Assembly: GCA_016178705.1 (NCBI GenBank)
Contig: JACOST010000002.1
Span: 1-64,000 of the forward strand
Length of the DNA stretch: 64,000 nt
Reading direction: 5' to 3'
Source of the DNA: Deltaproteobacteria bacterium
GTDB lineage: Bacteria > Desulfobacterota > Binatia > HRBIN30 > JACQVA1
The position numbers and the translations under genes are program-made. Shown here piece after piece: positions 10,323 to 45,523 of the stretch. How positions within the stretch are numbered: the first letter of the stretch is position 1; every line of letters begins with the position of its first letter. Below the pieces are notes generated by a model. It ran no database searches. It was not told the origin of the DNA and saw nothing but the letters and a program-made list of their open reading frames with translations.

Positions 10323-10748
10323 GTGATCACAGTTCCACGCGAGTTGCTGGGGCGCGATGTCGACCTGGGTGAAGTCACGGTGACGGCCGAAATGATCGCC
10401 ACCTACGCGCGCGCGGTCGGTGACGACGAGACCCTCGCCGGGTCGCTGCACGAAGCGCCGCCAACCTTCTGCCTGGTGTTGCGGCGTGGGATGACGCCGG
10501 AGATCGAGTTGCCGCCCGGCATGTTCGGTGTGTACGGCGGTCACGACATGGAATTTCATCAGGCCATTCGAACGGGCGAAACCTATCGCATCAGCGCCCG
10601 CATTACCGACGTGTTCGAGAAGAGCGGCCGCACCGGCGCGTTGACGGTGGTGGTGCGCGAGGCCGACATTCGCGACCAGCGAGGCGAACTGGTGACCCGC
10701 GTGATCGAGCACCAGATCGTGCGGCAACGGGGAAGTCAGGATCGATGA
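10323..10748 (+). CDS. MaoC-like hydratase, N-terminal hot-dog subunit
   Basis: About 141 residues of the FAS1-like/MaoC hydratase family, hot-dog fold without the full catalytic motif; such proteins pair with a second MaoC subunit to hydrate enoyl-CoA. Visible: VTAEMIATYARAVGD, PPTFCLVLRRGM, and MEFHQAIRTGETYRISARITDVFEKSGRTG, typical of the group. GTG 10323 is the preferred start; GTG 10314 is possible. The frame extends upstream to 10110 but that part translates the REP palindrome, so it is not coding. The next gene overlaps by four bases (ATGA), supporting a heterodimer. Confidence 0.85.
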   Translation: MITVPRELLGRDVDLGEVTVTAEMIATYARAVGDDETLAGSLHEAPPTFCLVLRRGMTPEIELPPGMFGVYGGHDMEFHQAIRTGETYRISARITDVFEKSGRTGALTVVVREADIRDQRGELVTRVIEHQIVRQRGSQDR

Positions 10749-11167
10749 TCGGCCTCGGGGACGAACTGGGTCCGCGGCCACGTGCCGCTGTTTCCGCGGC
10801 GGAGGTCGCCGCCTATGTGGGCGCCGGTCAGATGCGCGAGCAGCTCTTCACCGACGCCGCGTACGCGCAGCGACTCGGTTTTGCCGATATCATCGTCCCA
10901 GGGCCGATGCTGACGGCATTCATCGAGCGCTTTCTGCGCGTCGAGTTGCCCGGCTGGCGTCTCGAACGCCTAAGCACCACTTTCCGCGTGCCGACGCCGA
11001 TTGACCGGTCGCTGGTCTTCCGCGGCGCCATCACCGAACATCACGAAATGCCCGACGGCGAGCGCCTGGTGTGCGACGTCCTTATCGAGCATCAGGACTC
11101 GCAACCCGATCGGACACACGGCGAGCGCGCGGTTACGGGAACGGCTACGCTCTACCGAGCGAGATGA
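10745..11167 (+). CDS. MaoC-like dehydratase, catalytic-type subunit
   Basis: 140 residues, second half of the two-gene MaoC hydratase. It contains a helix-strand hot-dog pattern: QLFTDAAYAQRLGFADIIVPGPMLTAFIERFL is the usual central helix with the GFxDxIVPGxM signature, followed by STTFRVPTPIDRSLVFRG. Start overlaps the previous stop by four bases. The partner arrangement resembles two-gene hydratases in steroid and fatty-acid degradation. The canonical D-x4-H dyad is not obvious, so activity of this subunit is uncertain. Confidence 0.83.
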   Translation: MIGLGDELGPRPRAAVSAAEVAAYVGAGQMREQLFTDAAYAQRLGFADIIVPGPMLTAFIERFLRVELPGWRLERLSTTFRVPTPIDRSLVFRGAITEHHEMPDGERLVCDVLIEHQDSQPDRTHGERAVTGTATLYRAR

Positions 11168-11468
11168 AGCGACGCCCCAGATGAGGCAGCGGCCACTGAC
11201 AGGCTTTGCAAGACCACCGGCCCCTCGATACGCCGCCCTTCGATACGAAGCCTGCGGCTTCTACTCAGTGCGGCTACTCGGGGAAGCGGCCTTTTTCCCG
11301 GGAGAGTCCAATATCCCTTTGCCCGAGTACATCGCGACGCGATCGTATCGAGGGCCGTCTTGCCCACTGGCAAGCGACTCGGCGAGTTGCTAGGCTCCGG
11401 CGCACTTCGGCGCCACCCACACTCACTTCAATCCATTCGATCGAGCGCAGGACGCTATCCCGGACATC
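11168..11468. other. Intergenic region with an inverted-repeat element
   Basis: No gene is visible. Most of the stretch is occupied by an inverted-repeat-bounded element at 11218-11357, described separately. The remainder should contain the promoter of the APC permease gene. Confidence 0.5.
11218..11357. repeat. 140-bp element bounded by inverted repeats
   Basis: CGGCCCCTCGATACG at 11218-11232 faces CGTATCGAGGGCCG at 11344-11357 (one unpaired base). Inside, further CGATACGAAG and CTACTCAGTGCGGCTACTCGG segments suggest internal pairing. It looks like a small non-autonomous interspersed repeat; no transposase is encoded. Confidence 0.7.
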
Positions 11469-43364: not shown

Positions 43365-43402
43365 AGCGGACACTTCCCATGGAGATCAAGGAGTAGCGAG
43401 CG

Positions 43403-44170
43403 ATGGGTGACCTTGCCGAATTCTCGCTGCCGGTACGGCTGCTGCTGCGCACCTACCGATGGCGCCGCATCGATCCTGTGCCGTGGGCGCCGCTGCGCAA
43501 GCCGCTCGCCGAGTCGCGCATCGCACTGGTCTCCAGCGCCGGCTTCATCGCACCCGGCCAACCGTCCTTCGATGACTCGGTGCGCGGTGGCGACGTGTCG
43601 TTTCGCGATATTCCGTCCGCCATCGACGTTTCGACGCTGGTCGAGACCCATCGCAGCGAGTCGTTCGATCATAGCGGGCTCGCGCGTGATCCGAACGTAG
43701 CCTTCCCGATTGATCGCGTGCGCGAGTTGGCGCAGCGCGGCCGGATCGGTACGGTCGCGCCGCGTCATCTCTCGTTCATGGGATCGATCACGGCGCCCGG
43801 CCGTCTCATCCGCGACACGGCGCCGGAAGCCGCGCGGCGCTTGGCCGCAGACGGCGTCGATGTCGCCCTGCTGGTGCCTGTCTGACCGTTTTGCAACCAG
43901 GCCGTGTGTCTGGTCGCTGCGGAGTTAGAACGCCAAGGCATCGCGACGGTCGCGATCGTCCTACTGCGCACGATCGCCGAACGCGTGCGCCCGCCGCGCG
44001 GGCTGTGCGTCCCGTTTCGCCACGGCTACCCACTCGACGCGGCGGGCGACCCGGCGCAACAGCATGCGGTGATCGAAGCTGCGCTGCGCCTGTTAGAAGA
44101 TCCAGCGCTGACTCCTCCGGTGCTGGCCGACTATCAAACGGGTGGAAGCCGCCCGGCGCTCGAACGCTAG
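43403..44170 (+). CDS. GrdB-like selenoprotein (in-frame UGA read as Sec161)
   Basis: The frame from ATG 43403 meets TGA at 43883-43885 after 160 codons, then continues open in the same frame to TAG at 44168-44170, giving 255 residues with selenocysteine 161. The joint reads [20 protein letters not shown], a UxxC redox motif. Both halves match the stand-alone 'glycine/sarcosine/betaine reductase selenoprotein B' family: [12 protein letters not shown] and SFRDIP before the [19 protein letters not shown] and [15 protein letters not shown] after it. A bacterial SECIS-like hairpin follows the UGA. AAGGAG lies upstream of the ATG. The family's reaction is unknown; full glycine reductase is absent here. 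Confidence 0.87.
43883..43914 (+). promoter_or_regulatory. UGA-Sec codon and bacterial SECIS-like hairpin
   Basis: UGA at 43883-43885 is followed after ten bases by a stem ACCAG (43896-43900) / CTGGT (43910-43914), extendable by G-U and C-G pairs, with an apical loop containing CGUGU. The G within the first two loop bases and the loop's 16-17 base distance from the UGA match the bacterial SECIS pattern recognised by SelB. Confidence 0.7.
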
Positions 44171-44703
44171 CGGCCCATCTGCTCGCGCATCGCCTTGGCG
44201 GCTGCGGCCATCATCGCATCGGTGTCTTGCTCACTCTTCTGAAGGTAGTCGAGCATGCGACACTTGGCGGTCTCAGCGCACAACGCCACCCGGCTCAGTC
44301 GCCCGAAGCGCCGATCGACGCGCAGCACGCCAGTGCCAGCCGGCTCCTCGAACAGGTCGGCGGGGCTCTTGCCCTCGCCCTTGAACGTGATGGTTTTGAG
44401 TGGCGTCTTGTCCGGCCCCAACAGTCCGCGTGCGCGCTGCGCCAACACTTCCGGCAGCCCTTGACCGTCACCATCGATGATCCACAGTTCTTCGACGCTG
44501 CGTTTGTCCGCGAATCGGGCGATGAGCCGCGTACCCGGCGCGGCGGTGTAACCGATTTGGTCGGGAGTCACCGGTGAGGTTGTCGCCGCACCATAGCGCG
44601 CCCCGTACTCGTCTTGCGACCGGCCCAGTTCGCCGGGCACTGACGTATCGCGGTGACACGCACCGATCAGCAGCACCAACGCAGCAGCGATTGCACGACG
44701 CAT
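44167..44703 (-). CDS. Lipoprotein of unknown function
   Basis: 178 residues from ATG 44703, where AGGAGAG lies ten bases upstream. Signal peptide RRAIAAALVLLIGAC has a lipobox ending at Cys16. The mature part contains TRLIARFADKRSVEELWIID and KTITFKGEGKSPADLFEE, with two later cysteines (ALCAETAKCRM) that could form a disulfide. I recognise no family. It overlaps the selenoprotein gene tail to tail by four bases and is the last gene of the long minus-strand cluster. Confidence 0.7.
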   Translation of the reverse strand: MRRAIAAALVLLIGACHRDTSVPGELGRSQDEYGARYGAATTSPVTPDQIGYTAAPGTRLIARFADKRSVEELWIIDGDGQGLPEVLAQRARGLLGPDKTPLKTITFKGEGKSPADLFEEPAGTGVLRVDRRFGRLSRVALCAETAKCRMLDYLQKSEQDTDAMMAAAAKAMREQMGR

Positions 44704-44722
44704 CGTAGACGTCTCTCCTGGT

Positions 44723-45523
44723 TTAGCGAAGCAGCGCAGCCACAGTACAAAGACCCGCCGCCGCCCGCGGTCCATACCAAGAGAGACACTTGCCATCAAC
44801 CAAGTGAACGCGCTGCGCGCGCAGCGCCGGCGTATCACGCAGCACGGCGAGATCTGCGAGGTCGCGTGCGGAGAATCGATACGGTTCACTCGGCAATAGC
44901 ACCGCCTCTGGTGCTCGACGCGCGACCTCAGCGAGCGTGGTCGTCGGATACGGCCCGGCGTCCGCGCGAAAGATGTTCGCTCCGCCGGCGGTCCACAGCA
45001 CGTCGTCGATGTAGGTGCCGCCGCTGATCGTCATCCACGGATTCTTCCAAATCGGACAGAACACGCTGCGGCGCGGACCGCGATAGGACGCCACATCCGC
45101 GATCGCAGCGGCGAGCTCGGCGGCCAGCTCGCGCCCGCGGGCCACGCAATCGGTCAACTGGCCCAAGCGTTGAAGCAGCCCAACCGTGTCAGCGAGCGAC
45201 GCCGGAAACGTCACGAACGTCGTAAGGCCCCACGCTTCGAGTTGTGCGACATCTTCGCGGCGGTTCTCCTCGGCGTTGACGATGACGAGATCGGGGTCCA
45301 AGCGCCGCACCGCTTCGCAATCGGGATTCTTGGTGCCACCGACCTTGGCTCGCTCCGCCACTGCCGCCGCCGGCTCTTCGCAGTAACGCGTGACGCCAAC
45401 GACGGCGTCGCCACAGCCCAAGAAGAACAAGGTTTCGGTGAGACTCGGTACCAGCGAAACGATCCGCCGCGGCGGTGCGGCGAGCGTGACGCTACGGCCG
45501 ATGTCATCGACGAGCGATATCAT
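44723..45523 (-). CDS. BtuF-like cobalamin/metal-chelate binding protein without signal peptide
   Basis: 266 residues of the helical-backbone metal receptor superfamily: RRIVSLVPSLTETLFFLGCGDAVVG is the first lobe, DPDLVIVNAEENRREDV the conserved D-x-V-x-x, and CLSWYGPRAAAGL the end. No export signal or lipobox is present, so it is predicted cytosolic, which is unusual for a B12 or haem uptake binding protein but known for 'cobalamin-binding protein' homologues. It lies downstream of B12-dependent mutase genes, which supports cobalamin as ligand. Confidence 0.83.
   Translation of the reverse strand: MISLVDDIGRSVTLAAPPRRIVSLVPSLTETLFFLGCGDAVVGVTRYCEEPAAAVAERAKVGGTKNPDCEAVRRLDPDLVIVNAEENRREDVAQLEAWGLTTFVTFPASLADTVGLLQRLGQLTDCVARGRELAAELAAAIADVASYRGPRRSVFCPIWKNPWMTISGGTYIDDVLWTAGGANIFRADAGPYPTTTLAEVARRAPEAVLLPSEPYRFSARDLADLAVLRDTPALRAQRVHLVDGKCLSWYGPRAAAGLCTVAALLR

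Follow-up and report, generated by a model that had tools for sequence, protein, structure and literature searches.

The window, a stretch of 64,000 nucleotides, carries at positions 43403-44170 a gene that very probably encodes a stand-alone selenoprotein of the PrdB/GrdB superfamily, probably cytosolic and acting as a selenol reductase in which Cys164 would be the resolving residue. Comparison of sequences established that its UGA codon is recoded as selenocysteine (Sec), that the genome holds the corresponding machinery, and that the gene stands alone. The superfamily is known from anaerobic amino-acid fermentation, in which it works with a pyruvoyl partner. Unlike in this fermentative role, the Sec subunit described here occurs on its own and in a genome with oxidase genes.

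A UGA codon read as selenocysteine

Direct reading of the plus strand revealed a frame that opens with ATG at 43403, ends with TAG at 44168-44170, and contains a single in-frame TGA at 43883-43885, a codon that resembles a stop and thereby hides the selenoprotein. The initial annotation had described this arrangement correctly, including the junction VPV-U-PFC, which falls on residues 158-164 of the 255-residue read-through product. The gene and its parts are as follows:

43388-43393, plus strand: Shine-Dalgarno-like AAGGAG, nine bases 5' of the start codon, by direct sequence reading
43403-44170, plus strand: PrdB-like selenoprotein gene, 255 aa plus stop, one UGA read through; homologues colinear across the UGA
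43883-43885, plus strand: UGA codon for selenocysteine, residue 161
43892-43894, plus strand: Cys164, second half of the UxxC motif and presumed resolving residue
43893-43917, plus strand: SECIS-like hairpin with stem 43896-43902/43908-43914, loop 43903-43907, and lower pairs 43893-43894/43916-43917

The end of the gene overlaps tail to tail, by four bases, with a 240-aa ORF on the minus strand (44167-44889) that has no Pfam or NCBIfam match.

The two parts flanking the UGA had been assigned to one family. Pfam and NCBIfam profiles matched the first half or the entire protein, while the second half alone gave no match in either library; however, homologues align across the UGA and the constraint on codon positions is similar on both sides. 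Among all pairs of 38 close sequences, the fractions of sites that differed were 0.275, 0.201, and 0.604 (codon positions 1, 2, and 3) over the 60 codons 5' of the UGA and 0.223, 0.156, and 0.586 over the 60 codons 3' of it, indicating that the part behind the supposed stop is constrained as protein at least as strongly. We therefore concluded that both halves form one protein. The claim that the second half has no start is not strictly true, as the ORF list holds a GTG in this frame at 43904, 21 nt downstream of the first base of the UGA; apart from this codon, nothing favours a separate downstream gene.

The read-through protein was matched in 102 of the 148 genomes of the class (E <= 0.001). 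Almost every row of the class matches listed had one TGA; the two rows lacking it were a fragment ending before the Sec position and a true Cys form. The locus set comprised the best 30 matches of the class and three more, together with the best 80 of 243 relatives in GTDB genomes, and is a sample, not a census, in which more distant Cys forms are under-represented. Leaving out two loci that end before the UGA (L112 and L133), position 161 was readable in 112 homologous loci. All 112 (110 distinct), including those from closed or named genomes, carried TGA, which excludes a sequencing error. Cysteine occupied this position in three homologues, from Roseomonas (CPVC), Haematobacter (CPIC), and a genome of the same order (G075, CPVC), and no residue other than Sec or Cys occurred there among the homologues examined. 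The second cysteine of the motif was found in 111 of the 112 loci; the exception, L043, has Sec followed by an aspartate in its place (UPLD, not UPxC) and would require another resolving thiol. The proposed selenoprotein with Sec in a UxxC motif thus held up, and recoding of the UGA at 43883 is confirmed at the level of sequence comparison.

The Cys forms of Roseomonas, Haematobacter, and G075 group with a second, distant paralogue in the same genome (G000:C31:222370-222987, equivalent to L048:9674-10285). This paralogue bears a TGA and has the Roseomonas and Haematobacter Cys forms as its nearest relatives in the tree; Sec and Cys therefore exchange within one small clade. Two different TGA-bearing family members also lie about 6 kb apart on one contig of L110 (10001-10756 and 15242-15874), and on plasmid pDA100 of Photobacterium sp. 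DA100 (L160, 406826-407479) a GrdB-like TGA-bearing frame occurs where the gene table has no feature.

A hairpin, ACCAG/CTGGT, had been noted to begin ten bases 3' of the UGA codon, as in bacterial SECIS elements. It is present with a five-base loop and a minimum free energy of -17.3 kcal/mol (z -2.24 versus shuffles). Against synonymous recoding, the hairpin of this gene alone was not significant (z -1.10, p 0.17; z -0.82, p 0.24 for the same sequence entered as L018), although it is conserved over the family with compensatory changes and is for this reason more than chance. The family mean z versus synonymous recoding was -1.32 at the UGA, as opposed to -0.29 for a control stretch within these genes (n = 111 for each, the entries not being independent). 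At least six of the seven pairs were kept in 104 of 109 distinct loci, compared to 283 of 21,630 frame-matched control sites (1.3%) at other places in these genes. Across the 36 distinct close sequences, pairing was seen in 98.8% of cells and fell to at most 35.3% when the partner was slid. Column pair 19/27 of these sequences was G-C in 17, A-U in 15, and G-U in 4: every sequence with Thr (ACN) in place of Ala (GCN) at codon +6 has T at the third position of codon +8, a synonymous choice. Column pair 15/31 was C-G in 26, U-A in 6, U-G in 3, and broken in 1. These hairpin and covariation counts are drawn from related sequences; in a tree-based covariation test, only three independent pairs fell on well-supported branches, with 2.8 in the same direction on average (p 0.25), a number too small for significance. 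Conservation does not extend to the outer pairs adjoining the UGA.

The genome (6.1 Mb, 33 contigs, 98% complete) was searched for the genes required for Sec insertion, and all four were found. The tRNA-Sec gene selC scored 74.7 bits (cut-off 47), selA (597 bits) adjoins selB (390 bits), and selD was matched with 407 bits. The selD locus (G000:C14:751984-752913, L073) has one TGA inside the match, and the selenophosphate synthetase of this genome is therefore probably a selenoprotein as well. Across the class, a clear tRNA-Sec was present in 86 of the 102 homologue-bearing genomes and in 21 of the 46 others (Fisher p 2.8e-6, for genomes that are related and unevenly complete), leaving 16 of the 102 with no clear tRNA-Sec. 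Among 38 genomes tested from the 80 loci, 32 had tRNA-Sec, one was doubtful (G171, 59 bits, 86 nt), and five had none that was clear. The gaps in homologue-bearing genomes are perhaps due to incomplete assemblies. The thresholds applied (E < 1e-11 for the class; at least 58 bits over at least 91 nt for the 38 genomes) were our own and were set after tRNA-Ser had also matched.

A TGA acting as a real stop, or arising from a sequencing error or pseudogene mutation that leaves two separate or dead halves, could draw on the weak hairpin of this gene itself and on the GTG at 43904; we consider it practically negligible in view of the TGA shared by all loci, the like codon-position pattern on both sides, and the full Sec machinery. 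Decoding as another amino acid (Trp or Gly, or by near-cognate suppression) is just as far-fetched: nothing in the data speaks for it, Cys replaces Sec in homologues, the downstream hairpin is conserved, and genomes of the class that have the gene tend to have tRNA-Sec.

Family assignment, distribution, and gene context

The protein passed the cut-off of the GrdB superfamily model PF07355 (41.8 bits, cut-off 22). The description as GrdB-like was accurate in this respect; however, the best profile was that of PrdB (TIGR04483, 117.8 bits, equivalog cut-off 300) and not that of the GrdB type (TIGR01918, 49.3 bits, subfamily cut-off 65.45), and neither of these curated cut-offs was reached. TIGR01918 was passed by a family member from Bacillus (L136, 84.2 bits) and also by true PrdB (81.4 bits). 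A reference PrdB from a Terrisporobacter plasmid, where its gene lies next to prdA and prdC, scored 420.5 bits with TIGR04483. By profile the protein is PrdB-like, which does not show it to be a subunit of D-proline or glycine reductase. At L159:2944-3666, the region around the Sec motif of a true PrdB weakly matched the model for UGSC family (seleno)protein (22.4 bits and E 9.5e-5, under the cut-off), a hint that PrdB and UGSC, two abundant marine selenoprotein families, may be distant relatives.

The pyruvoyl partner of the PrdA/GrdE type (PF09338) had no match in the gene's own genome, whereas the same search was positive in 33 of the 148 class genomes; it was also without a match in 14 other genomes of the same order among those listed as searched. 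All 33 positive genomes are among the 102 with a homologue, and the remaining 69 are the cleaner number for stand-alone genes, because part of the 102 are GrdB-type matches in PF09338-bearing families. Outside the class, PF09338 occurred in 2 of 38 genomes of family members (G151 and G162). GrdA (PF04723) gave no match in the genome, in a search that was equally empty in its controls. Pyruvoyl-linked reductases are expanded in one class genome, G132, which holds 18 PrdB/GrdB-like and 10 PF09338 matches.

We calculated a quick maximum-likelihood tree from 117 rows, without bootstrap and omitting two copies (L018 and L076) and two fragments (L066 and L108); 37 of its 114 inner branches were starred. 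With the GrdB-like rows as outgroup, two true PrdB rows split off next, and the stand-alone family comprises 110 rows (SH-aLRT 86). The family is old and mostly Sec-containing; in this tree it is placed outside true PrdB and GrdB. It is also set apart by its motif, VPVUPxCNQ versus TAGUGTCHR or TSTUGxCTR in proteins of the PrdB/GrdB type. The gene itself sits in a set of 36 rows (SH-aLRT 97) comprising seven unlabelled rows and metagenome-assembled genomes (MAGs) labelled as Verrucomicrobiota, Myxococcota, Acidobacteriota, Thermodesulfobacteriota, Planctomycetota, Gemmatimonadota, Nitrospirota, and Fidelibacterota. Horizontal transfer is likely but unproven, given that the labels are submitters' titles, which can be wrong for MAGs, and that many inner branches are weak. 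Cultured relatives include three Bacillus strains with Sec (L136, L137, and L140) and a Roseomonas with Cys (L156); Bacillus sp. V59.32b (DSM 105191) is one cultured relative. A clade of 14 rows (SH-aLRT 99; L134, L135, L138, L139, L150, L154, L155, L027, L029, L031, L036, L037, L040, and L041) consists of longer forms of 383-427 aa, whose extra helical C-terminal domain had no Pfam match in the five scanned and was modelled with a middling pLDDT of 77.

Upstream of the gene, a TPR-repeat protein ends at a distance of 38 nt on the same strand. The initial annotation had called it TMTC, for which Pfam detects TPR only, and had linked the selenoprotein to this gene and to an SDR gene. This link was not borne out. 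The 2,910 ORFs neighbouring the gene in 41 close loci contained one other match to the TPR protein (33% over 120 aa, 6.7 kb off, in L051), and SDR-like ORFs occurred in five other loci, between -5.8 and -1.3 kb and on both strands. Neighbour clustering of the 41 close contexts yielded no cluster of more than eight loci, with scattered offsets and strands; no neighbour was conserved. We dropped the link to SDR and TMTC. In 99 contexts of the wider family, no neighbouring gene family outside single lineages was present in more than 13; one such lineage is Poribacteria, with a sugar-dehydrogenase-like neighbour in 17 of 18 loci. As many flanks were cut by contig ends and ORFs were called mechanically, a weak link could escape these searches. 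MsrB adjoins family members on the other strand in five acidobacterial loci (L143, L144, L145, L147, and L153). In L079, the only one of these loci scanned with the MsrB profile (197 bits), it lies directly 3' of the family gene on the same strand (10747-11316). On a Roseomonas plasmid, the Cys homologue is located beside selO.

The genome gave three COX1 matches, which make a Stickland role unlikely and from which we infer that the host respires oxygen. The scattered distribution and lack of a fixed neighbour would fit a single-gene function passed among genomes that already make selenoproteins.

Predicted structure and proposed reaction

Modelling by AlphaFold2 with 57 sequences and Cys in place of Sec predicted a compact, self-contained alpha/beta protein of 255 residues (pLDDT 95.4, pTM 0.93). 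In the model, Sec161 is the last residue of the loop that follows strand 154-158, and helix 162-177 begins immediately behind it. Besides the motif, R68, D96-P97-N98, F101-P102, G127, E176, R199, and G208 are invariant in the 57-sequence alignment. Sequence searches for a solved relative with the family alignment or with the longer form L134 gave chance matches only, and Foldseek returned nothing at E <= 0.001 in the PDB or the viral library. The best hit of VIA-align was microcystinase C (Z 8.8, 159 residues, rmsd 4.0); with many Rossmann-like folds tied at Z 7-8, we did not regard this likeness as informative. The model is Rossmann-like, and the thioredoxin fold is absent among the structural matches listed.

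Since Sec161 is predicted to lie in the strand-helix loop with the helix beginning at residue 162, this helix would favour the selenolate. The selenolate would then attack a small molecule at an electrophilic centre (C-X, N-O, O-O, or S-S), Cys164 may resolve the selenium adduct to form a selenenyl sulfide, and the enzyme could be regenerated by thioredoxin or a cellular thiol. Such chemistry would correspond to the pyruvoyl-independent half of the D-proline/glycine reductase reaction. Near-identical relatives keep Sec and not Cys in every close locus examined, so that strong selection must hold Sec, which points to a reaction that needs selenium. A thiol/selenol redox enzyme, as initially suggested, remains an inference.

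A different function, that of a general antioxidant or thiol-disulfide selenoprotein (acting in peroxide, disulfide, or methionine-sulfoxide repair) rather than a cleaver of a specific metabolite, appears unlikely, yet it is the strongest of the alternatives. UxxC is common among redox motifs, MsrB and selO are found next to some family members, and a fixed metabolic context is absent. Against this, MsrB neighbours occur in few of the 99 contexts and not on a consistent strand, the predicted fold is Rossmann-like with no thioredoxin fold among the structural matches listed, and relatives of known function cleave C-N bonds, with one related pair tied to C-F cleavage in the portion of PMC10838667 available.

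Considerably less probable still is that the protein belongs to D-proline reductase as a true PrdB, or to glycine/betaine/sarcosine reductase as a true GrdB, and works with a pyruvoyl subunit. PrdB is the best profile, PF07355 is passed, the marine homologues are classed as PrdB in the available literature, and two genomes with close homologues do have PF09338. However, the TIGR04483 score lies far below that of the PrdB encoded beside prdA and prdC, the partner was not found in a genome of this completeness by a search that succeeds elsewhere in the class, the tree places true PrdB and GrdB-like rows outside the family, and the Sec motif differs. We therefore prefer the stand-alone selenol reductase. 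A broader proposal extends it to a large, mostly Sec-dependent family that performs an undescribed reaction in oxygen-respiring bacteria, in which one polypeptide carries the selenolate half of proline/glycine reductase chemistry without the pyruvoyl cofactor, as a one-gene trait spread over many phyla. On this proposal we are evenly divided.

Comparison with known systems

PrdB-like selenoproteins have been counted repeatedly in the studies available to us in part: 42 PrdB sequences in the Sargasso Sea (PMC1088965), 235 Sec and 110 Cys forms in the GOS data (PMC2398784, the main text of which never mentions PrdA), a 'proline reductase' in Anaeromyxobacter and a Geobacter (PMC1794560), 131 PrdB selenoproteins in 110 organisms (PMC5029168), and 6.4% of marine selenoprotein genes (PMC9402790). 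A description of a stand-alone PrdB-like protein or of a separate stand-alone branch was not found in the open literature searched, as far as its accessible text goes. A PrdB-type UxxC selenoprotein is thus already known, and the separation from PrdA, the own branches in the tree, and the spread are new. The marine metagenome 'PrdB' selenoproteins are PF07355-type UxxC proteins counted under that name (PMC1088965, PMC2398784, in the parts available). Tallies of 'proline reductase' from environmental selenoproteomes may have to be split, and if the stand-alone reaction family is real, many marine and soil 'PrdB' selenoproteins would be mis-named and belong to it.

True PrdB (TIGR04483) shares the length class (a 238-position model) and the UxxC motif with our protein, is colinear with it over residues 27-232, and is 34% identical in Terrisporobacter and Peptoclostridium. 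In contrast to PrdB, our protein has no PrdA/PF09338 partner found in its genome, scores far under the cut-off, lies on its own tree branch with the motif VPVUPxCNQ, and comes from a genome with oxidase genes. GrdB (PF07355, TIGR01918) is alike in PF07355 membership, and our protein matches its C-terminal part with the Sec motif; it differs in lacking the first 200 model positions, in falling under the TIGR01918 cut-off, and in that a GrdE-type partner was not found in the genome. The chemistry of PrdB and GrdB involves a pyruvoyl subunit, according to the accessible part of PMC13188914. In Cloacibacillus porcorum, the GrdB/GrdE-like pair FarB/FarE is tied to fluoroacetate dehalogenation by C-F cleavage (PMC10838667, as far as available) and similarly connects a GrdB-related selenoprotein to cleavage of a bond outside amino acids; that system uses a GrdE homologue, for which no counterpart was found here, and belongs to an anaerobe. 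Further relatives are the Cys forms named 'glycine/sarcosine/betaine reductase selenoprotein B family protein' (for example Roseomonas WP_207415257.1 and Haematobacter WP_035710215.1), stand-alone genes of the same superfamily that have Cys in place of Sec and group with the second paralogue, L048. Together, the cultured Bacillus (Sec) and Roseomonas (Cys) relatives make the question of the reaction testable.
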